Of a DNA stretch of 64,000 bases, positions 21,277-37,303 are shown piece by piece. Origin of the DNA: Gammaproteobacteria bacterium RIFCSPHIGHO2_12_FULL_63_22 (GTDB lineage: Bacteria; Pseudomonadota; Gammaproteobacteria; Xanthomonadales; Xanthomonadaceae); NCBI GenBank assembly GCA_001801685.1, contig MGYJ01000077.1, positions 1 through 64,000 of the forward strand, given 5' to 3'. Every line of letters begins with the position of its first letter. Position 1 is the stretch's first letter. A program made the translations under genes and the position numbers. The notes beneath the pieces are model-generated. The model saw nothing but the letters and a program-made list of their open reading frames with translations, ran no database searches and was not told where the DNA came from.

Positions 21277-21834
21277 TCAAACCTGGTAGCCGCTGACTTC
21301 CTCGGGGCTTGTCTCGACGCCCAGCCCCAGTGCGACTCGGTTGACGAAGTTGAAATAGGCGGTGATCAGGTTCGCCAGCAGGATCTGCTGGTTGCTGAAG
21401 TGGAACCGCCGAAGCCTCTCCACCGATTCACTGGTGATCGACGAGGGTGCCAGCGTCAGCTGGACGGCGTAGTCCAACAGGGCGACGTCTTCCGGGGAAA
21501 TGTCGGCGCTGTGGTAATCGGCGGTGAACTTTTCCAATTGCTGCGGGTTGCGCATGTATTTCGACAGCGCCTCGGCATGGTGGGCGATGCAGTAGTCGCA
21601 GCGATTGACCTTGGATACCGCCACGGCGATCATTTCGCGCTGCTTGCGCGACAGCTCGCCCGGGGCGAACAACAGGTCCATATACAGCACCAGGTGCGCG
21701 GCCAGCGCCTCGGGCCGCAGGCTGTGCACCTGCAGGATGTTGGCGATCTTGCCGCGCTTGGCTCGCAGTTCGGCGTAGATTTCCTGCAGCCGGCCCTCAG
21801 CGCGTTCCGGCGGAATTTCGGTGATCCAGCTCAT
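21277..21834 (-). CDS. Carboxymuconolactone decarboxylase/peroxidase-like protein of the arsenosugar cluster
   Basis: 184 residues of the AhpD-like fold with the redox motif CDYCIAHH (Cys-x-x-Cys-x-x-x-His). In arsenosugar loci a protein of this type (annotated as peroxidase-like, associated with radical SAM ArsS) is nearly constant. ATG 21834 is used since the frame before it is only intergenic; it begins four bases after the arsS stop, so the two are translationally linked. Exact reaction is unproven. Confidence 0.87.
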   Translation of the reverse strand: MSWITEIPPERAEGRLQEIYAELRAKRGKIANILQVHSLRPEALAAHLVLYMDLLFAPGELSRKQREMIAVAVSKVNRCDYCIAHHAEALSKYMRNPQQLEKFTADYHSADISPEDVALLDYAVQLTLAPSSITSESVERLRRFHFSNQQILLANLITAYFNFVNRVALGLGVETSPEEVSGYQV

Positions 21835-21838
21835 CGAT

Positions 21839-22801
21839 TCATCCTTGGTTGAGGGCGCCGCCGCAGCTCGAGCCCTGGCCTGCGGTGCAGCCATAGCAGT
21901 GCTCGGCCACGGCAATGCGACGGGGCACGTTGCCATCGAGCAGGTCGCGCAGGTGCGAGGCGACCTGTCGGCCGCCGAGCGGGATCTTCAGCATCTGGTT
22001 GAAGTCGCAGTCGTACAGTTCGCCCTGGTAGTCCACGCTGACCAGGCTGCGACACATGACGTTGGCGAGGTTCTCGTTGCGATGTGCGGCCTTGAGGGTG
22101 CCCATGTAGGCGCCGAAGTGCCCTTTGGACAACAGCCACGACCCGTACCGCTGGATCGGCATGTTGGCGATGGCATACAGGCGGTTGAAGCGGATGCCGA
22201 AGTTGTCGCCAAGCAGTTGCTTGTACTGCGCTTCCAGCATGGCCTCGTCCGGCGGCAGGAAGGCGCCGTTCGGGTTGTAGACCAGGTTCAGGGTCAGGCC
22301 GCGTCCCTCGACGCCATAGCCGAGCGCATTGAGCTTCTGTAGTGCGCGCACGGAACTCTCGAAGACGCCGTTGCCGCGTTGTTCGTCGACGTTTTCCTGG
22401 CTGTAGCAGGGCAGCGAGGCTACGGCTTCCACCTGGTAGGCAGCGAGGAATTCGCCGACCCACTCGTAACCAGGCTCTTCCATGATGGTAGGGTTCAAGC
22501 GATCCATCACGTGCAGGCCGCGCGCGCGCGCCTCGTCCACCAGCCAGCGAAAATGCGGATTCATCTCCGGCGAACCACCGGTGAGATCCAGCGAGGAAGC
22601 ACCGCATCGGCCGGCCACCTTCAGCGCGAGCTCCATCGTGTCGCGGTCCATCATTTCCTTGCGGTGCGGGCCGGCGTTCACATGGCAATGGATGCAACTG
22701 AGATTGCACAGGTAGCCAAGATTGAGTTGAAGTGTCTCGATCCGGTCCCTTTCGATGGCCGGAAAGTCACTGACCCGGAGGAGTTGCCAGGTATCACGCA
22801 T
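21839..22801 (-). CDS. arsS: Arsenosugar biosynthesis radical SAM protein ArsS
   Basis: 320 residues. The radical SAM cluster motif CNLSCIHC (Cys32, Cys36, Cys39) is close to the N-terminus, followed by LDLTGGSPEMNPHFRWLV and a Cys-rich C-terminal region (EHCYGCTAGQGSSCGG). This matches the ArsS family, which converts dimethylarsenite plus SAM into a 5'-deoxy-5'-dimethylarsinoyladenosine-type intermediate of arsenosugars. ATG 22801 overlaps the end of the desaturase-like gene by eight bases. Cys, not selenocysteine, is used at the first motif. Confidence 0.93.
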   Translation of the reverse strand: MRDTWQLLRVSDFPAIERDRIETLQLNLGYLCNLSCIHCHVNAGPHRKEMMDRDTMELALKVAGRCGASSLDLTGGSPEMNPHFRWLVDEARARGLHVMDRLNPTIMEEPGYEWVGEFLAAYQVEAVASLPCYSQENVDEQRGNGVFESSVRALQKLNALGYGVEGRGLTLNLVYNPNGAFLPPDEAMLEAQYKQLLGDNFGIRFNRLYAIANMPIQRYGSWLLSKGHFGAYMGTLKAAHRNENLANVMCRSLVSVDYQGELYDCDFNQMLKIPLGGRQVASHLRDLLDGNVPRRIAVAEHCYGCTAGQGSSCGGALNQG

Positions 22802-23630
22802 GGTGGGTGTCTGCCGATGGAGAATGGCTGCAGGCCTTGCCGAAGGGCTGGCGCAACAAGCCGGTGAGGGATTGCGATTGGGAATTCCGGAATTCGTGCA
22901 GGCCGATGCGCATCCGGGCATGGCCGTCACGCGGTTGTTCGCGGCCGGACCGGAACAGTCGATCCCAGACGGAAAGGATGTTCCCGTAGTTGCTGTTGGT
23001 CTCGTCAGCGTGCACCGAGTGGTGGATGCGGTGCCAGTCGGGGGTGACAAAAACGCGGCGAAGCGCAGCATCGACGGCAGTGGGCAGCGCCACGTTGGCG
23101 TGTGTCATCAACGAGAAGCCCAACAGCATCGCCTCGTAAATCAAGATCGCCAACGGCGCGACGCTGAGTGCCGCGACCAAGGCCAGTTTGAAACCCAGCG
23201 AAGGCAGGATTTCCAATGGATGGAAGCGAAGTCCCAGGCTGACGTCGAAACCGATGTCGCTGTGATGGACGCGATGTGCGCGCCACAGGATGGGAATGGC
23301 GTGGAACGCGCGGTGCTGCCAATAGATCGCCAGGTCCAGCAACACGACGGCCGCAACCACTTCAAGCCAGGCGGGGCCTGGCGTCAGGTTGAACATTCCG
23401 AAGCCGGATGCTTGTACCCATGCGGCAAACGCCACGGCGCCGGCGGGCAGAAACAATCGGATCAGTCCGGTAGAGATCGCGATCAGGCCCATGTTGGTGA
23501 ACCAACGATGCGCGGTGCGTTCGTTGCTGCGCCGGGGTAATGCGAGCTGCAGAAGCGACAGCGACGCCAGCAGCAGGATCAGCACTGCCAGCTTCAGCCA
23601 GGCCTCGTGCGCGATCAGCCAGGCGCTCAT
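22794..23630 (-). CDS. Sterol desaturase/fatty acid hydroxylase superfamily protein
   Basis: 278 residues with about four membrane helices and the di-iron His boxes of this superfamily: HRAFH, HRVHHSD and HRIHHSVH. It starts in the 4-base overlap ATGA with the preceding glycosyltransferase gene (23627-23630) and its end overlaps arsS by eight bases. Its fixed place between the sugar-transfer genes and arsS suggests an O2-dependent oxidation of a lipid or arsenolipid tail, which is an inference. Substrate unknown. Confidence 0.9.
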   Translation of the reverse strand: MSAWLIAHEAWLKLAVLILLLASLSLLQLALPRRSNERTAHRWFTNMGLIAISTGLIRLFLPAGAVAFAAWVQASGFGMFNLTPGPAWLEVVAAVVLLDLAIYWQHRAFHAIPILWRAHRVHHSDIGFDVSLGLRFHPLEILPSLGFKLALVAALSVAPLAILIYEAMLLGFSLMTHANVALPTAVDAALRRVFVTPDWHRIHHSVHADETNSNYGNILSVWDRLFRSGREQPRDGHARMRIGLHEFRNSQSQSLTGLLRQPFGKACSHSPSADTHHA

Positions 23631-24313
23631 GGTGTTGCCGCCTTCAGGCTCATCCAGTCTTCCAACCAACCCGCGAGCCGACGTTGCGCCTCGGTGGGCG
23701 AGGGCAGCTGTTGCAGGCTAAGCGTCACCACCGCCAGGTCGGCGCCGCGATCGACATCGGACAGCTCGTCGATTTCCAGCCATTCTCCGCAGCCCTGCAT
23801 CGCGCTGACGAATTCGCCGCGGGTCCGGGCTTGGCTGTAGGTCGGCTGCGTCCACGCCTGGTCGGGTAGTTCGCAGTTGCCACCGAACATCCAGAAGCCG
23901 CCGTCCCGGGCCGGACCGATCACCAGGCGCGGGCCGGGAAGTGACAACCAGTCGATCGCCCGACGCAACATGTCGCAGGTCAGCTGCGGCGCGTCCGCGC
24001 CCAGAAGCAAGGCAAGCCGGTGTTCGCCGCGCAGCGTGCGATACACGTGCGACATGCGTTCGCCCAGACCACCTTCACCCTGGTCCATGCGTGGAAGGTC
24101 AGCCCAGCTGGGACCGATCAGCGCGCGTCTCTCGGCCACGGCCCAGTAAGTAGTGAGCTGCGTGGCCGGCACTTGCAGCGCGACTGACGCAACCGCTTCG
24201 GCCGAGCACAGGTAGAAGGCCTCGGCGCGCAGGCAGCCGACATCGGCGGCTAGTCGCGTCTTCACCGGCGACAGGTCGGGGGTCTTCACCATGATGCCGA
24301 GCCCGCAAGTCAT
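23627..24313 (-). CDS. TIGR04282-type arsenosugar glycosyltransferase
   Basis: 228 residues of the GT-A fold resembling CofC-type nucleotidyltransferases; begins LGIMVKTPDLSPVKTRLA, with LLLGADAPQL and ARDGGFWMFG as acidic metal- and donor-binding segments. The family is repeatedly encoded beside ArsM and ArsS. ATG 24313 overlaps the preceding gene by four bases. Presumably transfers or activates a sugar for the arsenosugar. Confidence 0.86.
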   Translation of the reverse strand: MTCGLGIMVKTPDLSPVKTRLAADVGCLRAEAFYLCSAEAVASVALQVPATQLTTYWAVAERRALIGPSWADLPRMDQGEGGLGERMSHVYRTLRGEHRLALLLGADAPQLTCDMLRRAIDWLSLPGPRLVIGPARDGGFWMFGGNCELPDQAWTQPTYSQARTRGEFVSAMQGCGEWLEIDELSDVDRGADLAVVTLSLQQLPSPTEAQRRLAGWLEDWMSLKAATP

Positions 24314-25011
24314 CGCGGACTTTCGGCGTGTGAAAAGCGACGCGCCTGGCGCCAGGTAAGTTGCAGGTGTTCGCGCGTGGTCTTCCACCAGCCCCGCTCG
24401 GAATACTTGCGGGCGCTGGTATGCAGGTTGGCGTGCAGCGCAAGCAGAGGGATGCCGAGCTTGCGCGCTTGCCAGACCATCGCGTGGTCCTCGCCACCGG
24501 CCAGGCTTTCGTCGAAGCCGCCCAGTCGTTCGAAAATTCGCCGTGGCATCACGAAGCCCTGGTCGCCAAAGGGCAGGCCCAGGTAGCGGCTGCGAATGCC
24601 GGCGCCGAAGGCGTTGATCGCGGTCCAGCGTGGCCCATCGGCCAGGAAACGCAAATTGAAATAGCCGATCGCATCCGGGTCGTCGGCGACCAGTGCCTGC
24701 AGCTTGAGGATGGTGGCCGATTCGAGTCGCGAGTCCGCGTGCAGGAACCACAACCACTGCGCCTCGGTGGAGCGCGCGCCGGCGTTGAGTTGTCGCGCGC
24801 GACCCTGCGCGGACAGCACGACCAGTACGCGTGGGTCGGCCAGCGGCACCGCCTCGCCGGTGTTGTCAGCGGCGAGTACCAGCGCAATCTCGCCAGCCTG
24901 CACGCTTTTGAGTTGCGGCAGCAGCCCGTGCCAGGCCGTGTCGCCCGGTCCGACCGGAACCACGATGGCCAGCGAGGGTTTTTGCACTGTTTCAGCAGCA
25001 GCTGGGCGCAT
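24310..25011 (-). CDS. TIGR04283-type arsenosugar glycosyltransferase (GT2-like)
   Basis: 233 residues, GT-A fold family 2-like: LAIVVPVGPGD at the start, an acidic DXD-like segment WLWFLHADSRLES near residue 95, and the acceptor region GDQGFVMPRRIFERLGGFDE. Family partner of TIGR04282. The gene starts 20 bases inside arsM and ends in a 4-base ATGA overlap, indicating translational coupling. Probably adds the ribose or other sugar. Confidence 0.88.
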   Translation of the reverse strand: MRPAAAETVQKPSLAIVVPVGPGDTAWHGLLPQLKSVQAGEIALVLAADNTGEAVPLADPRVLVVLSAQGRARQLNAGARSTEAQWLWFLHADSRLESATILKLQALVADDPDAIGYFNLRFLADGPRWTAINAFGAGIRSRYLGLPFGDQGFVMPRRIFERLGGFDESLAGGEDHAMVWQARKLGIPLLALHANLHTSARKYSERGWWKTTREHLQLTWRQARRFSHAESPR

Positions 25012-26047
25012 TGCCGGCCCCTGCGTTCGCAGCGGGGGAGGGGCCGCAATCAAACAATCCGAAATGCGTGCTCTTGTCGCCGATGAATCGGAAATGCGGC
25101 GCATAACGTGAGTTCGCCAGCATGTCGAAAGTGTTGCCGCAGACCAGCATCGGCCGTCCCGTTTCCAGGCGATGGTGGTCGTCGAGTACGAAGGCATGCG
25201 CCTGGCCTGGCACGGTGCCCAGGTAGGTGGCGACCTGGCCGTGGTCCTCGCAGCGGTCTTCCAACGCCATCTTGAAGGCACGGATGGTGATGGATGTGAA
25301 GTTCACATTGCCGATCTTCGCCTCGACACTGGCATCGAACAGCGGCACCGGCGATTGCGAGACGACCCGCGTATCGGCACAACCGACGGCTTGCATCATG
25401 CGGCGGAAGTCTTCGACATACAGGGCGCCTCCCAGGCATTCGCCCAGCAACACCGGGTCACGACGCAGCACGTCAGGAATACGGCGGTCGGCGAACACGT
25501 CGGAAAAATACAGCTCGCCACCCGGCTTGAGCACGCGGAATATCTCGGCAAAGACCCGGCCCTTTTCGGGCGAAAGATTCAACACGCAATTGGAAACCAC
25601 CACATCGACGCTTGCGTCGGCGATGCCACAGGCCGCGAGGTCTTCGATGTAACCCTCCACGAAACTGACGTTGGATTGCGCGTAACCGTATCGGTCGGCA
25701 TGCCACTGCTGGTGGCGCCGCGCCACGTCCAGTTGTTCGATGGTCATGTCCACGCCGATCACCCGGCCTCGTTCGCCTACCAGGCGCGACAGCAGGAATG
25801 CATCGCGGCCCGTGCCGCAACCCAGGTCCAGCACGGTCATTGCCTCCAGCGCGGGTGGCAGCGGCGACCCGCAACCGTAGAAGCGCTCGCGGACCTCGGG
25901 ATGCACGTCCGCCAGCATCTCGCGCAATGCATCCGGCATCGCCTCGGCGCTGCAGCACGCGCCTGTCTTAAGGTCTTTGCTCGATTGCAGTACTTCGCCG
26001 TAATAATGGCGGATATCATCAAGGGACGGGTCGAGGATTGCGTGCAT
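24992..26047 (-). CDS. arsM: Arsenite S-adenosylmethionine methyltransferase ArsM (arsenosugar type)
   Basis: 351 residues. SAM-binding motif VLDLGCGTG (about residues 72-80). Conserved Cys sites of ArsM are present: ACC (31-32), YGCGSPLPP (Cys59), SNCVLNL and GECLGGALY. N-terminus DIRHYYGEVLQSSKDLKT matches the arsenosugar-type group, as does the C-terminal extension with GHFR-like FRFIGDKSTHFG. ATG 26047 is chosen: GGAG is seven bases upstream, and the promoter 26096-26126 puts transcription start after ATG 26092. First gene of the arsenosugar operon. Confidence 0.94.
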   Translation of the reverse strand: MHAILDPSLDDIRHYYGEVLQSSKDLKTGACCSAEAMPDALREMLADVHPEVRERFYGCGSPLPPALEAMTVLDLGCGTGRDAFLLSRLVGERGRVIGVDMTIEQLDVARRHQQWHADRYGYAQSNVSFVEGYIEDLAACGIADASVDVVVSNCVLNLSPEKGRVFAEIFRVLKPGGELYFSDVFADRRIPDVLRRDPVLLGECLGGALYVEDFRRMMQAVGCADTRVVSQSPVPLFDASVEAKIGNVNFTSITIRAFKMALEDRCEDHGQVATYLGTVPGQAHAFVLDDHHRLETGRPMLVCGNTFDMLANSRYAPHFRFIGDKSTHFGLFDCGPSPAANAGAGNAPSCC

Positions 26048-26095: not shown

Positions 26096-26126
26096 ATAGG
26101 AGTCCGCCAGTGCGGAAAAGGATTCG
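26096..26126 (-). promoter_or_regulatory. ECF-type promoter of the arsM operon (shared motif, copy 1)
   Basis: Minus strand: CGAATCC (26126-26120), 16 bases starting TTTTCC, then ACTCCTAT (26103-26096). The same CGAATCC-N17-CTC layout occurs at 30305-30275 and 30925-30955. Expected start near 26090, leaving about 43 bases of leader before arsM. Likely -35 and -10 of the nearby ECF-like sigma factor; not shown experimentally. Confidence 0.72.
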
Positions 26127-26150
26127 AAGTTCCAAGACAGGCCCGAAAAC

Positions 26151-27236
26151 TCAGGCCATGAACGGATAGGCGAGATAGGCCACGCCTGCTGCCAGCGGCA
26201 ATGTTCCCAGCCAGGCCAGCAGGATGTTGCGGATGACCGGCCAGTGGCCGCCGCGGTTCTCAATCGCGATGCCGAACAGCGCGCCTGTGCTGACATGGGT
26301 GGTGGAGACGGGCAGGCCGAAGCGCGAGGCGATGATCACCAGCAACGATGTCACCAGGTTGCCGCCCAGCCCCTCGCTCGCATCCATGGGTGTGATCTTG
26401 TAGGCCAGCGTCTCGGCGACGCGGGCCGAGGCAAGCCAACCGCCGACCGCCATCGGCAGGATCACGAGCGCGGATGCGGAAGCAAGGCTGAACGCGCCCG
26501 TGGCGAACAAAAGCGCGGCGATTTTTGGTGTGTCATTGAGCCCGCGGGCGAAACTTACCGCCATCGCGCTGAGCAAGTGGCCCCGATCCAGCCACGCAGA
26601 CGCTCGAAGGATCCTGATGTCGCGTCCCGCGCCCGGCTGGCAGTTCGCTGATGCTGCGGCGCCGAGGCTAAGTTGCGCCCGGGCCAGCTGCAGGTTGGCG
26701 CTGTCGGGCATGGAATCGGCGGCGCTATCGACGCAGACGCAGGCCGCGGCCGCACGGCGCCGACGCAGCCACGGCACTACCGCCAGCGACAAGGCCATGG
26801 CAACCAGCGGCGACAGCAGCAAGGGCAGCAGCATGGCCTTCGATGCGGCCGCGATGCTCACGCTTGCTGCATTTGCGGCGAGGCCAGCGCCCAGCAATCC
26901 GCCCAGCAGGGCATGGGTTGTGGAGACCGGAAGTCCGAATCGCGTCGCAAGCCAGATGGTGACGCCGGCGGACAAGCCGACGGCCATCAGGAAGGGCAGC
27001 GATGTCGTGAGCTCGGCAGGAACGATGCCCTTGCCACTGAATGCCGCAAGCAGGCCATTGGCCAGGAAGATGGATACCACGCCGCCGAGCGCCGTCGCGA
27101 GGGTGGCGAGCGCCAGCGCCGGTTTCACCCGCACCAGTCCCGAGCCGATCAGCGTTGCTGCGCCCTTCACGTTGTCGTTGGCGCCGTTGGCCGCTGCCAG
27201 CAACAGGGTGATGAACGCGATGAGGAACAAAGTCAT
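26151..27236 (-). CDS. PiT-family inorganic phosphate transporter
   Basis: 361 residues with about nine to ten helices in two related halves: GANDNVKG with GLPVSTTHALLG in the first and GLNDTPKI with GLPVSTTHVSTG in the second, the duplicated PiT signature. Starts in the 4-base ATGA overlap with the DUF547 gene. PiT carriers import phosphate (and can carry arsenate) with a cation; its place in an arsenosugar locus suggests phosphate homeostasis during arsenate stress, an inference. Confidence 0.92.
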   Translation of the reverse strand: MTLFLIAFITLLLAAANGANDNVKGAATLIGSGLVRVKPALALATLATALGGVVSIFLANGLLAAFSGKGIVPAELTTSLPFLMAVGLSAGVTIWLATRFGLPVSTTHALLGGLLGAGLAANAASVSIAAASKAMLLPLLLSPLVAMALSLAVVPWLRRRRAAAACVCVDSAADSMPDSANLQLARAQLSLGAAASANCQPGAGRDIRILRASAWLDRGHLLSAMAVSFARGLNDTPKIAALLFATGAFSLASASALVILPMAVGGWLASARVAETLAYKITPMDASEGLGGNLVTSLLVIIASRFGLPVSTTHVSTGALFGIAIENRGGHWPVIRNILLAWLGTLPLAAGVAYLAYPFMA

Positions 27237-28069
27237 TGGCGGGATACCTTTCTCGGGTTGGTGGGCACGACCTGGTTCAAGGACCAGTCGTAGGTCGTGT
27301 AGGCGATCGGCAACCGACCTCGTTCAAGCCGCTCGATGCTCGCCTTGTCCAATGCCAGTTCGCGCGCATGGCGCGACAGGAAAATAGCAATGCCTGCGGC
27401 ATGCCGGTCGAAGTCCCCGGCGTACCAGTCGAACAGTCTGGATACCCGCAAGACACCGGCACGCGCGTCGTAGCCGTTACGGGTGCGATCGCGAAGGAAT
27501 CGTCGAGTCTGGTCGTCGAGTTGGGACTCCAGCCGATTGCCGGCGTAGGCTTCCGGCCGCAACGCGGGACAGCCGATGGATGCGCAGTTCACGGCAAAAT
27601 GGATGCGCACGTCGCGATAGTCACGGGCACCGCGCAGCAACCGATGTTCGATGTCGTCGAGGCTGCGCTTCTCGCCCAGCAAGGACACGAACGGCCGCGC
27701 CCACGCCGATGAAAACAAGCTGCCCAGTTCCTTGATCGAATCCAGTGCCGGATAGCGTGTCAGCACCAGCTCGATGGTGGCGGCGTTGTAGACGTTGATC
27801 AGGAATGCCTGGCGTTCTGCCAGCGACCAGGCGGTGAATCGGGTCGCGTCGATCCGTGCCGCAGCGGCGAGGAAGGCACGCAGCCTGCCACGATCGTTCT
27901 TGAATCCCTGGTAATCAACGACCGTGGCCGTACCCGCCGGATTCCAGCGCACGTGTTCATGCAGCAGCGCGTCGAAGTCACCTTGCTGGCGGACGAACGC
28001 AGGTGGCGCCGCACTTACCGGCGCGACAAGGGTGAAAGCAAGCAAGGTGCGCAGCAGGAATGCCCGCAT
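27233..28069 (-). CDS. DUF547 domain-containing exported protein
   Basis: 278 residues starting with a Sec signal peptide (MRAFLLRTLLAFTLVAPVSA, cleavage expected near residue 20). DUF547 domain follows, marked by LINVYNAATIELVL and FAVNCASIGCPALRPEAY with two Cys that could bind metal or form a disulfide. DUF547 proteins have no agreed function; they occur next to radical SAM loci. It starts three bases after the reductase stop. Confidence 0.85.
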   Translation of the reverse strand: MRAFLLRTLLAFTLVAPVSAAPPAFVRQQGDFDALLHEHVRWNPAGTATVVDYQGFKNDRGRLRAFLAAAARIDATRFTAWSLAERQAFLINVYNAATIELVLTRYPALDSIKELGSLFSSAWARPFVSLLGEKRSLDDIEHRLLRGARDYRDVRIHFAVNCASIGCPALRPEAYAGNRLESQLDDQTRRFLRDRTRNGYDARAGVLRVSRLFDWYAGDFDRHAAGIAIFLSRHARELALDKASIERLERGRLPIAYTTYDWSLNQVVPTNPRKVSRQ

Positions 28070-28072
28070 CCC

Positions 28073-30223
28073 TCAGCCCCTGCGCCATTCGAAGAAGCGT
28101 TCGGCGATGCGCAGTGCCAACGCGGGCGCGTGGGCGCGTTTCCAGGCGCCGGCGGCGTACTTGTTCGCTTCGCTCATCGTCGGATAGGTATGAATCGTGC
28201 CCAGCAATTTGGACAGGCCCAGACCGTGCTTCATCGCCAGCACGAACTCCGCGAGCAGATCGGCCGCATGGTCGCCCACGATCAACGCGCCGAGGATGCG
28301 ATCACTTCCGGGCGGCGTCAGCACTTTCACGAAGCCGTGGTCGGATGAGTCGGCGATGGCCCGGTCGAGTTCCGACAGTTCGAATCGCGTTACTTCAACC
28401 TTGATGCCTTGCGCACGTGCTTCGTCTTCTGACAGGCCGACGCGCGCCACTTCGGGATCGGTGAAGGTGGCCCAGGGAATGACGCGATAGTCCACCTTGA
28501 AGCTCCAGAACGGCGCGAGCAGCCCGTTCAACGATGCGTACCAGGCCTGGTGCGCGGCGACGTGGGTGAACTGGAAAGGACCGGTGACATCGCCGCAGAC
28601 ATAGACGTTGGGCAGGCTGGTGCGAAGCAGGGAGTCGGCCTGGATCGTGCCGCGGGGCGACAATTGGATGCCCAGCTCCGAAAGCCCGAAGCCCTCGACG
28701 TTGGCCTTGCGTCCCAGCGACACCAGGATCTGGTCGAATTCGTAGCTGCGTTCTTCACCATCCACGTCGCAGACCAGGCGCCCGCCGTCATCCATAGGCT
28801 CCACGCGAATGGCCTTGTGGGCGGTGGCGACGGTGATGCCTTCCGCTGCGAACCGGCGAGTCACCTCTTCGGCGGCGTCGGCATCCTCGCGCGGCAACAA
28901 ACGCGGCGCCATTTCAACCAGCGTGACCTCGCTGCCGAAACGCGCGAAGCACTGGGCCAGCTCGCAACCGATGGGTCCGCCGCCCAACACGACCAGTCGC
29001 TGCGGGGTCGCGCGAAGATTCCACACGGTGTCCGAGGTCAGGAATGCCACTTGGTCCAGGCCCGGGATATCCGGTACCAGTGGCCGCGCACCGCTGGCGA
29101 TGATCACGCTGCGTGCATTGATCCTTCGGCCATCGACGTCCACTTCCCACGGCGATACCAGCGTCGCGTTGCCGGTGATCACGTCAACGCCCAGTCCCGT
29201 GTAGCGTTCAACCGAGTCGTGCGGTTCGACTTTGCCGACCACGGTTTTCACGCGGTCCATCACCTGTGCGAAATCGAACGTCGCTTCCAGTTTGTCGATG
29301 CCGTAGTCACGACTGTTCCGCGCTTCCGACAACAGTCGCGCCGAGCGGATCAGGGCCTTGGAGGGCACGCAGCCTGTGTTGAGGCAATCGCCGCCCATCT
29401 TGTGTCGCTCGACCAGCGCGACCTTCGCCTTGGCCACTGCGGCGATGTAGGACGAGACCAGTCCCGCCGAGCCGGCGCCAATCACGATCAGGTTGTAATC
29501 GAAGGATGCAGGCTTGCGAAATCCGCGGTAGATACGGCGCATGGCGATCCAGCCCGACAGCGCGCGCAACAGGAACGGCGACGCAGCCAGCAGCGTGAAT
29601 GCGAAGACCAGGCCCGGTGACAGCAGGTCGCGCGCTGACTCGATGGTCGCCAGTTGCGTGCCGGCGTAAACATAGACCACGGTGCCCGGCAACATCCCCA
29701 GTTGGCTGACGCCGTAAAAGGTTCGGGTCTTCATTGCCGACAATCCGGCCAGCAGGTTCACCACGAAGAATGGAATGACCGGCACCAGGCGCAGGCTGAA
29801 GAGATAAGCAGCGCCATCCTTCTCGATGCCGCGGTCAAACGCGGCGAGTCGATCGCTGTAGCGCTCGCGCAGCCAGTCGCGCAGGATGAATCGTGATGAA
29901 AGGAAGGCCAGCGTCGCGCCGATGGTGCTGGCGAAGGAGTCGATGACCACGCCGCCGACCAGTCCGAAGATGGCGCCCGAGGCGATGGTGAGCACCGTCG
30001 CGCCAGGCAACGAAACAGCAGTTACCAGCACATACAGAAGGAAGAAGAGTCCTGCCGCCGTCCACGGATGGGCGCCAGTCCAGTGGGTCAGTTCCAGTTG
30101 CCGAGCCTTCAGTGTGGCCAGGTCCAGCATGGCCAGCGCACCTGATTTCCAAAGTGCGAACACAATCACGATGATCGCGAACAGCAGGGCAATACGTAGG
30201 CGGCCCGATTGGATCTGGGTCAT
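28073..30223 (-). CDS. TVP38/TMEM64 - flavin disulfide reductase fusion protein
   Basis: 716 residues. N-terminal half (about 1-230) is a TVP38/TMEM64 (DedA-superfamily) membrane domain with several helices and the motif FFVVNLLAGLSAMKTRTFYG. The rest is a class I pyridine nucleotide-disulfide oxidoreductase: FAD motif LIVIGAGSAG, redox pair CLNTGCVPSK, NAD(P) motif VVLGGGPIG, and dimerisation domain ending HTYPTMSEANKYA. It resembles mercuric reductase but lacks the N-terminal metal-binding domain and C-terminal vicinal Cys pair, so the name merA is not used. ATG 30223 is chosen over 30265. First gene of its operon, behind promoter copy 2. Confidence 0.92.
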   Translation of the reverse strand: MTQIQSGRLRIALLFAIIVIVFALWKSGALAMLDLATLKARQLELTHWTGAHPWTAAGLFFLLYVLVTAVSLPGATVLTIASGAIFGLVGGVVIDSFASTIGATLAFLSSRFILRDWLRERYSDRLAAFDRGIEKDGAAYLFSLRLVPVIPFFVVNLLAGLSAMKTRTFYGVSQLGMLPGTVVYVYAGTQLATIESARDLLSPGLVFAFTLLAASPFLLRALSGWIAMRRIYRGFRKPASFDYNLIVIGAGSAGLVSSYIAAVAKAKVALVERHKMGGDCLNTGCVPSKALIRSARLLSEARNSRDYGIDKLEATFDFAQVMDRVKTVVGKVEPHDSVERYTGLGVDVITGNATLVSPWEVDVDGRRINARSVIIASGARPLVPDIPGLDQVAFLTSDTVWNLRATPQRLVVLGGGPIGCELAQCFARFGSEVTLVEMAPRLLPREDADAAEEVTRRFAAEGITVATAHKAIRVEPMDDGGRLVCDVDGEERSYEFDQILVSLGRKANVEGFGLSELGIQLSPRGTIQADSLLRTSLPNVYVCGDVTGPFQFTHVAAHQAWYASLNGLLAPFWSFKVDYRVIPWATFTDPEVARVGLSEDEARAQGIKVEVTRFELSELDRAIADSSDHGFVKVLTPPGSDRILGALIVGDHAADLLAEFVLAMKHGLGLSKLLGTIHTYPTMSEANKYAAGAWKRAHAPALALRIAERFFEWRRG

Positions 30224-30274
30224 GGAGACGTCCTGGTGGAGGGGGGCGATGACAAAAAGCCGCATCGACCTGGG

Positions 30275-30305
30275 TAGTGAGTCGGCCGAAGGGAAAAAGG
30301 ATTCG
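30275..30305 (-). promoter_or_regulatory. ECF-type promoter of the TVP38-fusion operon (shared motif, copy 2)
   Basis: Minus strand: CGAATCC (30305-30299), 16 bases starting TTTTTCCC, then ACTCACTA (30282-30275). It gives a leader of about 45 bases before ATG 30223, nearly the same distance as copy 1. It lies between the divergent operon and the sigma factor gene. Confidence 0.72.
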
Positions 30306-30343
30306 ATTTGTCGCGCTATCGGGCGGCGAGTAGAGTTGGAGCC

Positions 30344-30910
30344 ATGTCCGCAATAAAACTAAATCCGGATCGAATCGAAGCCGCCCAGGCAGGCGATGCG
30401 AAGGCCCTGAATGAAATCCTGGCGTGCTCGCGGCAGGACCTGCGCCGCTATGCCGAGCACCATTGCGTCGTGAACGATGTCGAGGACGCCGTCCAGGAGA
30501 CCTTGTTCATGGCGTCGCGCCGCATGGGCGACCTGCGCTCGGTCGAGAGCTTTACGTCCTGGCTGTTTCGCATCGTGAAGAATGAATGCAATCGCATGCG
30601 CCGGGGCTGGCGCATGCTGACGAACCAGGAAATCGGCGAGGAAATAGAGCCTGTCGCCACGCCCGAGCCCTTGGCCTGGCGCCTGGACCTGGCTCGCATG
30701 ATGGCGGCCCTTCCGCCGCAGTACCGCGCGATCCTGCTGCTTCGCGACGTGGAAGGACTGTCGCTGGAGGAGTTGGGCGAGCGCCTGAACCTCAGCCTGC
30801 CCGGCACGAAATCCCGGCTCCATCGCGCCCGGATGCTGGCGCGCGCGCGGCTGGCTTCGCCCGACGAGAGCCCGGAGTCCGTCCTGCCGGGTTTCGACGA
30901 CGAGCCATAG
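30344..30910 (+). CDS. ECF-type RNA polymerase sigma factor
   Basis: 188 residues with regions sigma-2 (DAVQETLFMASRRMGDLRSVESFTSWLFRIVKN) shown here only in part, residues about 47-85, and sigma-4 (LPPQYRAILLLRDVEGLSLEEL and a DNA-binding helix LSLPGTKSRLHRARML, shown separately). No sigma-1 or sigma-3, as expected for ECF sigmas. ATG 30344 follows GGAG. No anti-sigma factor gene is evident next to it. It faces the TVP38-fusion operon and is followed by promoter copy 3, so it is the best candidate to read the three related promoters. Confidence 0.92.
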   Translation: MSAIKLNPDRIEAAQAGDAKALNEILACSRQDLRRYAEHHCVVNDVEDAVQETLFMASRRMGDLRSVESFTSWLFRIVKNECNRMRRGWRMLTNQEIGEEIEPVATPEPLAWRLDLARMMAALPPQYRAILLLRDVEGLSLEELGERLNLSLPGTKSRLHRARMLARARLASPDESPESVLPGFDDEP

Positions 30911-30924
30911 CGCAACGAAAGCAG

Positions 30925-30955
30925 CGAATCCTTTTCCGCGATCGGTTCCTCTATC
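30925..30955 (+). promoter_or_regulatory. ECF-type promoter (shared motif, copy 3) before the membrane protein-AraC pair
   Basis: Plus strand: CGAATCC (30925-30931), 16 bases starting TTTTCC, then CCTCTATC (30948-30955). CTC is at the same distance as in the other two copies. It lies just after the sigma gene and about 100 bases before the next start. Confidence 0.65.
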
Positions 30956-31053: not shown

Positions 31054-31470
31054 GTGGCAATGATGGCTCGACTGTTTGCGACCCTTGCGGTGCTGACGTA
31101 TGCCGCCGCTGTTCCCGTCATGGAGTTGAACGACACGCATGTGTTCAACCCCGGATGGCTCTCCCATGCCCGCCTGCATGAAGTCTGGCAACTGTCCACC
31201 AACTCGGCCATTGGCCTGGTGGCGCTATGGCAGGTCTGGGTGCGCAACGATCTTCGCTGGCAATGCTGCCTGACGCTGCTGGTTACGACCGGATTCTTCC
31301 TGGCTTACGCATTGCAGGACAGTTATGGCGGTTCGATGATGCATACCGACGGCAGCGAGAAAACGATAATGGGCGTCAACATCGGGCTGGTCGGCTTCGG
31401 GATTGCCAGCAGCTTGTCGATGCTCGCGTGGGTCCTGGGTCCCCCAGCGCGTACGTCGAGCCGTCGCTGA
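31054..31470 (+). CDS. Small membrane protein of unknown function (possibly DUF6640-like)
   Basis: About 138 residues with four predicted helices. Distinctive segment MELNDTHVFNPGWLSHARLHEVWQL after helix 1 (positions about 24-48). I believe this resembles the DUF6640 family but cannot confirm. The start is uncertain: GTG 31054 has GGAGG five bases upstream, and ATG 31060 is in frame. Its stop overlaps the AraC start by one base (31470). Confidence 0.7.
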   Translation: MAMMARLFATLAVLTYAAAVPVMELNDTHVFNPGWLSHARLHEVWQLSTNSAIGLVALWQVWVRNDLRWQCCLTLLVTTGFFLAYALQDSYGGSMMHTDGSEKTIMGVNIGLVGFGIASSLSMLAWVLGPPARTSSRR

Positions 31471-32381
31471 TGGCCGAGCAACTGACCACGGACCTGCTGT
31501 CGTCGCTGCTTGCACGCATCAGTTTGCGGGGGCATGTCTATGCGCGGCCAACCGGCTGCGGCGAGTGGCAGATAAATCCGACCGGCCATGCGCGCGCCAC
31601 CTATCACCTGATTACCAGCGGCACGTGTTGGCTCCACCTGCGGAAAGGCCAGCCACCAATCGAATTGCGAACCGGGGACCTGGTTTTTTTCCCGAATGAC
31701 GCGTGGCATGTGATGAGCGCAAGCCCGGAGCTGTCCGGGGAAAGCACGCGCCTGCCGGCGCCCGATGGCGGAGAGCAGACGCAACTGGTTTGCGGCCTGT
31801 ATCGCGCCGATGATCGAGAGCTCGAACGACTGCTGCAGGGACTGCCGCCGCTGGTGCACATTCGTGCCGATGATGCTGATGGCAGGTTGCGCGAGGTCAT
31901 TGCTTTCCTCGGCACGGAGGCCGAGCAGGCCCATCCTGGCAGTTCATTGATCCTCGACTCGTTGTCCGATGTATTGCTGGCGCTTGTCTTGCGCCACTGC
32001 CTTGAGCAAGGCCTGATCAGTCACGGGCTGCTGGCCGCACTGGGCGACCCGAGGTTGGCTGCGGTGCTGGCGGCTGTGCACGCCGACCCGGGCGCACACT
32101 GGGATGTCTCGACATTGGCCAAGCGCGCAGCGCTTTCCAGAAGCACGCTCGCCGACCGATTCCAGAAAGTACTGGGCGCGAGCCCGGGCCACTATCTTGC
32201 GCAACTTCGGATGCAGGAAGCCACCGTGCAGCTTCGCAATGAAGACGCTTCCGTCGCGCAAATCGCTGAGCGGCTTGGCTATGCCACCGAGGCCGCCTTC
32301 CGCCGGGCGTTCAAGCGAACCACCGGCCTTACGCCCGGGGAGGTCCGCCGCCAGCGAACTGCCACCGAAACTCAGGGTTGA
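31470..32381 (+). CDS. AraC-family transcriptional regulator (cupin plus HTH)
   Basis: 303 residues: an N-terminal cupin-type sensor domain (residues about 10-185, with HLRKGQPPIELRTGDLVFFP) and a C-terminal double helix-turn-helix (WDVSTLAKRAALSRSTLADRF and a second helix in VAQIAERLGYATEAAFRRAFKR, given in part). Starts in the TGATG overlap with the upstream membrane protein gene. Likely under the same ECF promoter; target unknown, possibly the convergent CMD/membrane-protein operon (its 3' end overlaps by ten bases). Confidence 0.92.
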   Translation: MAEQLTTDLLSSLLARISLRGHVYARPTGCGEWQINPTGHARATYHLITSGTCWLHLRKGQPPIELRTGDLVFFPNDAWHVMSASPELSGESTRLPAPDGGEQTQLVCGLYRADDRELERLLQGLPPLVHIRADDADGRLREVIAFLGTEAEQAHPGSSLILDSLSDVLLALVLRHCLEQGLISHGLLAALGDPRLAAVLAAVHADPGAHWDVSTLAKRAALSRSTLADRFQKVLGASPGHYLAQLRMQEATVQLRNEDASVAQIAERLGYATEAAFRRAFKRTTGLTPGEVRRQRTATETQG

Positions 32382-33133: not shown

Positions 33134-33697
33134 TCAGGCCGCGCGGTCTTCCGCTGGCTGCCAACGGGCGCTTTCAAACGCCGCGTCCAATGGTGTTCCG
33201 AGCAGATGGTTGGCGTAGTTGGACAAGGTCTTCTGCGAAATGCCGACCAGTACCTCGAGCACCTGTGCGCGATTGAATCCGGCGCCGAAAAACGCCGCCA
33301 ACTGGTCTTCGGAGATGAATCCACGCTGGTTGACCACCGCGCGGGTGAAGGTAGCCACCGCATCCAGACGGCTGTTGCCAGTTGGCGTGCCGCTGCGAAG
33401 CGCGCTGATCTGGCTGGGTGAAAGCGACTTGCCAGCGAGCACGGAATGCGCCGCAACGCAGTAATCGCAACGATTCTCCGTGCTGGTGGAGATGGAGACA
33501 GCTTGTTGCTCGGCCGGGCTCAGGCTGGTCTTGCCGAACTGCTCGGCGAGGCCGAGATAGGTGTGCAGCGCTACCGGCGAGTTGGCGAGGCCCGACAGCA
33601 GGTTCGGCACGAAGCCGAAGTTCTTGTTGACGGCCGCGAGCGTTTCGCGTGCGGCGACGGGTGCGGTTTCGACGGTGGGGAAGGAAAATCCGTTCAT
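33134..33697 (-). CDS. AhpD-like carboxymuconolactone decarboxylase-family protein
   Basis: 187 residues with the AhpD core: NFGFVPNLLSGLANSP and redox motif RCDYCVAAHS (Cys-x-x-Cys-x-x-x-His). ATG 33697 is set by the family start; the frame further upstream is not similar. Likely a disulfide reductase or alkylperoxidase acting on peroxides or other electrophiles. First gene of a minus-strand run with two membrane proteins, divergent from thioredoxin. Confidence 0.88.
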   Translation of the reverse strand: MNGFSFPTVETAPVAARETLAAVNKNFGFVPNLLSGLANSPVALHTYLGLAEQFGKTSLSPAEQQAVSISTSTENRCDYCVAAHSVLAGKSLSPSQISALRSGTPTGNSRLDAVATFTRAVVNQRGFISEDQLAAFFGAGFNRAQVLEVLVGISQKTLSNYANHLLGTPLDAAFESARWQPAEDRAA

Positions 33698-35732: not shown

Positions 35733-36632
35733 TCACTGCAGCGCCTTGTTCGACCGAAGTTGCTCCACGGCCAGGTCGACGAAGCTGCGGACTTTGGCAG
35801 AGCCGTGGCGGCCTTCGCGGTGGACCACGTGGACCGGCAACGACGGTTCCTCGTAAGTCCTGAGCACGGCCTTCAGCGTGCCGGCGGCAAGTTCGTTCGC
35901 CACTTGGTATGAAATCAGCCGAGTCAGGCCGAATCCACTCTTGGCCGCCTCCAGCGCACCGTCATTGGTATTCACCACGATTCGTGGGCTGAACCGGACG
36001 CCAATCTTGGCCTTGCCCTTCCTGAAGGTCCACTCCGAATCAGCGCTGATTGACGCAGCCGCGACGATGGTGTGCTTCGCGACGTCTGCGGGCGTCTTCG
36101 GGGTGCCATGCTGCTTCAGGTAGGCAGGCGATGCGCAGACGACGCGGCGCACCGTGCCGACGCGAATGGCACGCAGCGAAGAGTCCGGCAATGAACCGAT
36201 GCGGATGCCGACATCAAGCCCCTCGTCGAGCAGGTTGACGACGCGATCGACGAACAGCGCCGATGTCGTCATTTGCCGGAAGGTCGCGAGGTAGGCCGTA
36301 ATGACCGGCATCACATAGGTCTTCCCGAACAATACCGGCGCCGTGACCGCAAGATGTCCGCGTGGCGTGGCATTGATGCCCGCGGCCGCTTCGTCGGCCT
36401 CGTCCGCCTCTAGCAGGATCCGACGCGCATCTTCCAGATAGCGGGCGCCGGCATCGGTGATCCGCACCAGGCGAGTGGTCCGCGTCAGCAGCCGCACGCC
36501 CAGGCGCTCCTCCAGGAAAGCGATCGCCCGGGTGACTGCCGGAGGAGACATGCGCAGTCGCCTCGCGGCGGCTGCGAAACCCTCTTCTTCGGCAACGGCG
36601 ACGAAGACGGCCATCAGATGGAACCTGTCCAT
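35733..36632 (-). CDS. LysR-family transcriptional regulator
   Basis: 299 residues: N-terminal HTH (FAAAARRLRMSPPAVTRAIAFLEERLG, about residues 17-43, shown here in part) and a periplasmic-binding-like effector domain. Divergent from the CMD-family gene at 36758, with palindromic candidate sites between them, which points to control of that gene. No co-inducer can be named. Confidence 0.93.
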   Translation of the reverse strand: MDRFHLMAVFVAVAEEEGFAAAARRLRMSPPAVTRAIAFLEERLGVRLLTRTTRLVRITDAGARYLEDARRILLEADEADEAAAGINATPRGHLAVTAPVLFGKTYVMPVITAYLATFRQMTTSALFVDRVVNLLDEGLDVGIRIGSLPDSSLRAIRVGTVRRVVCASPAYLKQHGTPKTPADVAKHTIVAAASISADSEWTFRKGKAKIGVRFSPRIVVNTNDGALEAAKSGFGLTRLISYQVANELAAGTLKAVLRTYEEPSLPVHVVHREGRHGSAKVRSFVDLAVEQLRSNKALQ

Positions 36633-36637
36633 TGGCT

Positions 36638-36674
36638 ATTCCAATAAGTGGAATTATCTTTTCCATTATATGGA
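36638..36674. promoter_or_regulatory. Palindromic sites in an AT-rich gap, candidate LysR operator
   Basis: The LysR start and the divergent CMD-family gene are separated by about 125 AT-rich bases, which stands out in this high-GC window. They hold ATTCC (36638-36642) / GGAAT (36650-36654) and TCCAT-TAT-ATGGA (36662-36674). The TTCC/GGAA theme is shared. They fit a LysR-type T-N11-A site region. Confidence 0.6.
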
Positions 36675-36757
36675 TATTCTTCATTTGGATGGAATATGAA
36701 AAAGTGGCCTACGTCGAAACTTCAGCGACGAATCCACTCAATCACAGGAACAACTTC

Positions 36758-37303
36758 ATGGCACGCATCAACCTGGTAACCGACGGCTCCGCCAATCCCG
36801 AACAGAAGGCGCTCTTCGACGCCATCCACGCGCAGTTGGGCATGGTGCCGAATTTCCTCAAGGCATTCGCCAACTCGCCGGCGGCCCTGAAGGCCTTTCT
36901 CGGACTGCACGGCATTGCCAACGACGGTTCGCTCGATCCGCAGACCCGCGAGCGCATCGCCCTCGCGCTCGCCCAGCAGAACACCTGCGAGTATTGCCTG
37001 TCGGCGCACACGGCGATTGGCCGCAAGGCCGGCCTGGATGGCGCCGAGATGGACGCCAACCGCAGCGGTACCAGCCATGACGAAAAGGCCGCGGTCGCCG
37101 TACGATTTGCGCGCTCGCTGGTGACCCACATGGGAGAAATCACCACGGGCGAACTGGTGGAAATGCGCGACGCCGGCTACAGCGAATCCGATATCGTCGA
37201 GGTCATCACCCACGTCGGCATGAACATCCTGACCAACCTGCTGGGCAAGGCCGGACGCATCGACATCGACTTTCCAAAGGTCGAACTGAAGATCGCTGCC
37301 TGA
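36758..37303 (+). CDS. AhpD-like carboxymuconolactone decarboxylase-family protein
   Basis: 181 residues with the CMD/AhpD fold; NFLKAFANSP and the redox motif NTCEYCLSAHT (Cys-x-x-Cys-x-x-x-His). A CAGGA sequence about nine bases before ATG 36758 supports the start; the frame open from 36632 is not coding-like. Probably an alkylperoxidase/disulfide-type redox enzyme under LysR control; substrate unknown. Third paralogue-like protein of this fold in the window. Confidence 0.9.
   Translation: MARINLVTDGSANPEQKALFDAIHAQLGMVPNFLKAFANSPAALKAFLGLHGIANDGSLDPQTRERIALALAQQNTCEYCLSAHTAIGRKAGLDGAEMDANRSGTSHDEKAAVAVRFARSLVTHMGEITTGELVEMRDAGYSESDIVEVITHVGMNILTNLLGKAGRIDIDFPKVELKIAA

Follow-up and report, generated by a model that had tools for sequence, protein, structure and literature searches.

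A stand-alone ECF sigma factor and three matching promoter-like elements suggest a dedicated regulon at a putative bacterial arsenosugar locus

Several extracytoplasmic function (ECF) sigma factors are known to serve small regulons associated with metal stress. As described in passages of the corresponding reports, Caulobacter SigF-NrsF, Sinorhizobium RpoE7 (ECF16), and Cupriavidus RpoQ-RsqA, encoded beside gig, are linked to metal stress and DUF692/DUF2063 operons (PMC3511200, PMC6180224, PMC10304878), CorE and CorE2 of Myxococcus (ECF44/238) are metal-dependent and have no anti-sigma factor (PMC8999054), and OrbS of Burkholderia cenocepacia senses metal through on-board cysteines (PMC9023288). 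In Cupriavidus metallidurans, arsM expression is not RpoD-dependent, which provides a precedent for a non-housekeeping sigma factor at arsM, and the passage in question mentions neither the serving sigma factor nor an arsenosugar cluster (PMC9045368). Here we describe a locus of Gammaproteobacteria bacterium RIFCSPHIGHO2_12_FULL_63_22 (Xanthomonadaceae; assembly GCA_001801685.1) in which a stand-alone ECF sigma gene lies among putative arsenosugar genes and three copies of the motif CGAATCC-N17-CTC; the window is the whole 64,000-nt stretch analyzed, positions 1 to 64,000 of contig MGYJ01000077.1. Judging from sequence comparisons, the three sites are probably promoters of the adjacent sigma factor, a metal(loid)- or thiol-stress ECF recruited to arsenosugar synthesis, and the regulon part of this reading can be held with high confidence.

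The three motif copies and the sigma gene are arranged as follows.

26100 to 26126, minus strand: motif copy 1, exact CGAATCC-N17-CTC, upstream of arsM
30279 to 30305, minus strand: motif copy 2, upstream of a gene run encoding a TVP38-reductase fusion (hereafter TVP38), a DUF547 protein, and a PiT transporter; counterparts at the matching place in three relatives (loci L036, L026, and L101)
30344 to 30910, plus strand: stand-alone ECF sigma factor of 188 aa with His40, Cys41, and Cys82; Sigma70_r2 and Sigma70_r4_2 above cut-off, TIGR02937 at 59.4 bits (cut-off 42.9)
30925 to 30951, plus strand: motif copy 3, 3' of the sigma gene and 5' of a membrane protein-AraC pair; the same-place copy in L036 precedes a CMD-DUF547 pair

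A sequence-only reading of this DNA had proposed exactly three motif copies and an ECF-like sigma gene between copies 2 and 3. Both proposals held: a pattern scan of the window found no other exact copy, TTTT directly follows CGAATCC in all three, and the sigma gene has the domains expected of a stand-alone ECF. All three sites lie at the places named, with ranges that had been drawn 4 nt too long (the core spans 27 nt), and the distance of about 45 bases to the start codons needs correction, as CTC and the likely ATG are separated by 52 nt at arsM (start at 26047) and by 55 nt at TVP38 (30223); the corresponding distance behind copy 3 is 108 nt (31060).

These copies exceed chance expectation. 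Under a second-order Markov model of both strands, the window should contain 0.20 occurrences of CGAATCC-N17-CTC, 0.0096 once TT is added, and 0.0003 with TTTT, against three observed, and with TT fixed a spacing of 17 yields three matches in the window and spacings of 12-16 and 18-22 none. Allowing up to two mismatches gives 76 window matches, fewer than the mean of 87 in shuffled sequence; only exact copies (zero mismatches, found at the three sites only) are therefore meaningful. Across the bacterium's own genome (4,256,130 bases, 99 contigs), CGAATCCTTTT-N12..16-CTC matches three times, always at the arsenosugar locus (reversed control: 0), and CGAATCCTT-N15-CTC, with as many as one mismatch allowed, gives 33 matches versus 7 in the reversed control. 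Exact matches to the latter number five, namely the three locus copies and two others. The latter are on C65, a contig with phage-like genes, where one falls within a terminase-like frame and the other just beyond a tail-like frame; both are taken as chance. The strict TTTT pattern was found in the own genome alone among 61 genomes; it misses G033, which has TTTC.

Conservation of the motif beside orthologous sigma genes, which the earlier reading had put forward as a check, was confirmed in relatives. In the Lysobacterales metagenome-assembled genome at locus L036 (its coordinates identify it with G076:C43, the two being counted once), whose sigma factor is 70% identical to that of the window, the exact motif lies upstream of TVP38 and a second copy follows the sigma gene, preceding CMD-DUF547; the genes for TVP38, a small membrane protein, PiT, ArsM, two glycosyltransferases, a hydroxylase, and ArsS follow one another on one strand. 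In G033 (L026; sigma 64% identical), the exact motif again precedes TVP38, and the contig begins within DUF547, so that any arsenosugar genes are out of view. The TVP38-reductase frame of this genome retains its first and last parts with the middle gone (L026 685-1146), either a deletion or an assembly fault. G305 (L101) encodes TVP38, PiT, ArsM, two glycosyltransferases, a hydroxylase, and ArsS, also with the exact motif upstream of TVP38; at E 1e-12 or better, only one sigma matched in this genome, 42% identical and encoded on a separate contig (L116). That 3.5-kb locus contains three motifs with one mismatch each, and the sigma gene there has for neighbors a DUF2892-like gene and a gene for a Cys-rich peptide. 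The peptide gene, of KCGAKCAGKC type (L116 791-1075, minus strand), has one such motif upstream and no Pfam match. A search for CGAATCCTT-N15-CTCTW in 14 chosen genomes returned eight matches (reversed control: 0), seven of them before TVP38, after the sigma gene, or before a sister sigma gene, and one unexplained. An exact motif match at G288:C46:52368-52396 (L124) adjoins GGGAATGG-type repeats, in a genome with no family sigma at E 1e-16 or better.

Motif and sigma factor also co-occur. Searching 398 genomes of the order for the TVP38 fusion identified 56 genomes at E 1e-150, the best 30 of which were examined at one locus each, with flanks of 1.5 kb unless the contig ended sooner and 15 wider stretches around 15 of the loci. 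A family sigma, defined here by a match at E 1e-30 or better, is present in four of these 30 genomes (own, G076, G305, and G392), and the exact motif stands upstream of TVP38 in three of these four versus none of the 26 others (one-sided Fisher test, 0.001). The contig of G107, one of the 26, ends at TVP38 and offers no upstream sequence; calculated by hand, the value becomes 4/3654 = 0.0011 when G107 is excluded and 3/378 = 0.008 when the discovery locus is excluded as well. A class-wide sigma search at E 1e-40 recovered the own genome only (1/369), and a search within the family of G076 recovered G076 only (1/10).

The wider sigma family provides a further view of the motif. Its tree sets clade A (window, L048, and L005) beside all others, which we divided into clade B (42 Lysobacterales-type loci, including L070 for its HvfA-like neighbor, though the tree places it next to C) and clade C (17 DUF2892-linked loci). 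Within the fetched flanks, an MNIO gene or KCG-repeat peptide was detected at 38/42 clade B, 0/3 clade A, and 1/17 clade C loci, and a DUF2892-like gene at 0/42, 0/3, and 16/17, respectively. No MNIO match occurs anywhere in the window, no MNIO or KCG-repeat gene lies at the window sigma locus, L005, or L048, and L036 has no MNIO gene. NCBIfam annotation of two clade B loci (L043 and L044) identified the neighbors as HvfA family, HvfB, HvfC, and HvfX, and at most clade B loci, including these two and L070, a stand-alone ECF sigma gene sits beside HvfA/MNIO-type genes for ribosomally synthesized and post-translationally modified peptides (RiPPs). According to a passage of PMC12452194, sigma genes accompany Buf1 but not Buf2 clusters, a pattern to which clade B sigmas beside KCG-repeat precursors may be an exception.

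To score the motif in clade B, the best match to CGAATCCTT-N15-CTC located 60-160 nt before the sigma domain was compared between the 42 loci and 1901 control windows. With up to one, two, and three mismatches, matches were found at 11, 20, and 33 of the loci versus 0, 9, and 85 of the controls. A further 15 distant loci (three plasmid records and twelve genome matches, after excluding three rows of clade B or own sigmas as already counted) included six with the exact motif 306-317 nt upstream of the sigma gene, one with a single mismatch, and one, from the betaproteobacterial Variovorax, with an 18-nt spacer. One exact match is on an Ensifer plasmid (Alphaproteobacteria), which makes the promoter code at least alpha- and gammaproteobacterial. 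Since the motif precedes many sister sigma genes as well as 6/15 distant ones, it looks like the specificity of the sigma family, and many sigma genes of clades B and C appear to be autoregulated. The own genome encodes another family sigma (G000:C35; L027 7204-7791, L024), of clade B and 55% identical, which is followed by a ribonuclease T-like gene and has no motif and no MNIO or KCG-repeat gene in its fetched flanks, making it an apparent orphan. A distant family sigma is also encoded on a Klebsiella IncR plasmid (L131 4992-5519), beside CMD and haloacid dehalogenase genes and with the motif absent; other enterobacterial plasmids matched too. Among the papers listed by searches of the open-licence literature, we found no report of this sigma family or of arsenosugar genes controlled by a sigma factor; the current ECF classification may already include the family under a group number.

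A second family trait is a pair of cysteines. All 62 family sequences (47 + 15) have both Cys41 and Cys82, with His40 in 51 of the 62, whereas in a small control of ten other ECFs from the fetched loci Cys41 and Cys82 each occurred twice and never together. The window sigma has cysteines only at positions 28, 41, and 82, the conserved pair being in region 2, and a Pfam scan recognized no anti-sigma factor among the neighboring genes. In view of the invariant region 2 pair we favor sensing by the sigma factor, and it is possible, if somewhat doubtful, that the protein itself would respond through Cys41 and Cys82 to redox stress or to metals and metalloids that react with thiols.

The remaining genes of the locus are listed below.

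28073 to 30223, minus strand: VTT (TVP38) domain fused to a pyridine-nucleotide disulfide reductase (PF09335, PF07992, PF02852)
27233 to 28069, minus strand: DUF547 protein (PF04784)
26151 to 27236, minus strand: PiT-type phosphate transporter (PF01384)
24992 to 26047, minus strand: ArsM-like methyltransferase; best match NF008823 arsenite methyltransferase at 187.1 bits (cut-off 263), AsSugarArsM NF038099 at 114.5 (cut-off 400)
24310 to 25011, minus strand: TIGR04283-like arsenosugar glycosyltransferase, 170.5 bits (cut-off 182)
23627 to 24313, minus strand: TIGR04282-like arsenosugar glycosyltransferase, 113.7 bits (cut-off 134)
22794 to 23633, minus strand: fatty-acid-hydroxylase-family protein (PF04116)
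21839 to 22801, minus strand: ArsS radical SAM arsenosugar protein, TIGR04167 at 432.5 bits (cut-off 300)
21277 to 21834, minus strand: CMD/AhpD-like protein, named by eye; a 56%-identical relative sits behind the L036 copy after the sigma gene
31060 to 31470, plus strand: small membrane protein; weak DUF6640 match (E 5e-4), below cut-off
31470 to 32381, plus strand: AraC-family regulator, Cupin_6, RclR-like; NF040475 at 127.9 bits (cut-off 400)

On the minus strand, the order is thus TVP38-reductase, DUF547, PiT, copy 1, ArsM-like, two glycosyltransferases, hydroxylase, ArsS, and CMD-like, and on the plus strand sigma, copy 3, membrane protein, and AraC. ArsS scores above its NCBIfam cut-off and the ArsM-like protein and both glycosyltransferases below theirs, so that the putative “arsenosugar” label draws chiefly on ArsS, together with the gene set. 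Three CMD/AhpD-like genes (by eye) lie within a 16-kb part of the window, at 21277-21834, 33134-33694, and 36632-37303.

Taken together, these data suggest a mechanism. RNA polymerase bound to the sigma factor would recognize a -35 element, CGAATCCTTTT, and a -10 element with CTC at its core, 17 nt apart, and would start transcription of TVP38-reductase-DUF547-PiT, of arsM through the two glycosyltransferase genes and the hydroxylase gene to arsS (probably including the CMD gene), and of the membrane protein-AraC pair. The target genes would presumably be induced together, by a signal that may be redox stress or a metal or metalloid that reacts with thiols (arsenite and perhaps also copper), perceived via Cys41 and Cys82 and not via an anti-sigma factor. 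More tentatively still, this could be a widespread family of stand-alone ECF sigmas with an on-board Cys41/Cys82 sensor that would react with thiol-binding metals, metalloids, or oxidants. Its shared CGAATCCTTTT-N13-CTC code would then have connected several detoxification pathways to the sensor, namely copper-binding HvfA peptides and DUF2892 membrane proteins and also, in some of the Lysobacterales, the synthesis of arsenosugars.

Several observations weigh against this reading. The arsM copy of the motif is found in the window only: in L036, PiT and arsM are consecutive genes of a single run and arsM has no motif of its own, arsM of G305 has none upstream either, and the G033 contig is without arsM. 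The copy after sigma likewise has different genes behind it, membrane protein-AraC in the window and CMD-DUF547 in L036. Not all 30 TVP38 loci show arsenosugar genes, and arsS was seen at nine of them (own, L036, L101, L102, L104, L105, L108, L114, and L115), of which three have the motif and six do not, indicating that the sigma factor is not needed for the arsenosugar pathway, and G392 has an arsenosugar cluster devoid of the motif, although its genome encodes a family sigma, which adjoins an HvfA-like gene on a different contig. The G305 motif would depend on a sigma of just 42% identity, and seven of the 15 distant loci (L131, L134, L137, L139, L144, L146, and L148) have no match with up to two mismatches near the expected place. 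Nothing motif-like precedes any of the three clade A sigma genes, which for this reason are not apparently autoregulated, and a promoter scan near them found no sigma-70-like promoter. As for sensing, the sigma structure model is poor (pLDDT 66) and does not place the Cys pair, and there may be a very small anti-sigma factor near the sigma gene, among the reading frames of at least 25 aa listed there. The earlier proposal of a dedicated sigma factor for arsenosugar, phosphate, and reductase genes is upheld by the motif conserved at TVP38 and after sigma in relatives, but not by the arsM copy or the membrane protein-AraC target, neither of which is conserved, nor by the region before the sigma gene, where the motif is absent.

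The chief rival explanation, which we regard as rather unlikely, also takes the motif as the family promoter and assigns the role of anti-sigma factor or sensor to a membrane partner, i.e., a DUF2892-like CPxC protein or, in the window, perhaps the DUF6640-like one. Such a partner would fit clade C, in which the DUF2892-like gene found at 16/17 loci is directly upstream of the sigma gene in those read, and the window does have a small membrane protein under copy 3; however, DUF2892-like genes are absent from all clade A and B loci and from both the window and L036, and no counterpart of the DUF6640-like protein was found in L036. We consider it improbable that the sites are used by another regulator, with the adjacent sigma a bystander. 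The AraC gene within the locus would be one candidate user, but the sites have -35/-10 form with fixed spacing, and the motif accompanies the sigma gene in L036, which lacks the AraC pair there; the C35 paralog would be another, as its clade uses similar sites and it could use those of the window, which counts against the adjacent sigma, although no motif lies upstream of the paralog itself. That the sites are chance matches or a dispersed repeat with no promoter function was rejected as very improbable: the motif is short, the genome GC-rich, and the two-mismatch pattern not enriched in the window, yet matching places in distant genomes share only the two blocks (exact on the Ensifer plasmid, with the longer spacer in Variovorax), and uniqueness in the genome, the Markov expectation, conservation in relatives, and clade B enrichment over controls all speak against it.

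If a dedicated sigma factor does read these sites, bacterial arsenosugar synthesis would have a dedicated and testable switch, the linked sigma gene and clear promoter code making the inducing signal directly testable. The regulon would further list co-regulated genes of unknown role (DUF547, VTT-reductase, and CMD), arsenosugar synthesis would be tied to regulators found beside copper-binding RiPP genes, and the family would offer a test of metal sensing by a sigma factor itself through two cysteines.

Compared to known systems, the window sigma resembles parts of several. SigF, RpoE7, and RpoQ have a membrane anti-sigma gene in the passages cited above, unlike the window sigma, for which none was recognized among its neighbors, and the SigF motif, given there as GTAACC-N16-CGAA (PMC3511200), differs from CGAATCC-N17-CTC. 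Membership in ECF16 (SigF/RpoE7) was rejected on this different promoter and on the flanking genes, which by Pfam are not NrsF. CorE and CorE2 are metal-dependent ECFs with no anti-sigma factor, a dependence that would be shared here if the proposed signal is correct; however, the C-terminal domain of CorE is Cys-rich and its linker carries a CXC motif (PMC8999054), and the 188-aa window sigma has neither feature. A CorE-like identity was rejected on the missing Cys-rich tail and the three cysteine positions. Sensing of metal by on-board cysteines, as in OrbS, may also apply, although the OrbS cysteines are C-terminal and Fe(II) turns OrbS off (PMC9023288), whereas the window pair is in region 2. 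In the copper-binding RiPP operons of HvfA, HvfB, HvfC, and HvfX, MNIO and KCG-repeat genes adjoin sigmas of clade B, and clade A is instead linked to arsenosugar genes. Finally, the arsM-arsS cluster with TIGR04282/TIGR04283 glycosyltransferases is represented here by the same genes, and what sets this locus apart is the linked ECF sigma gene and its promoter motif.

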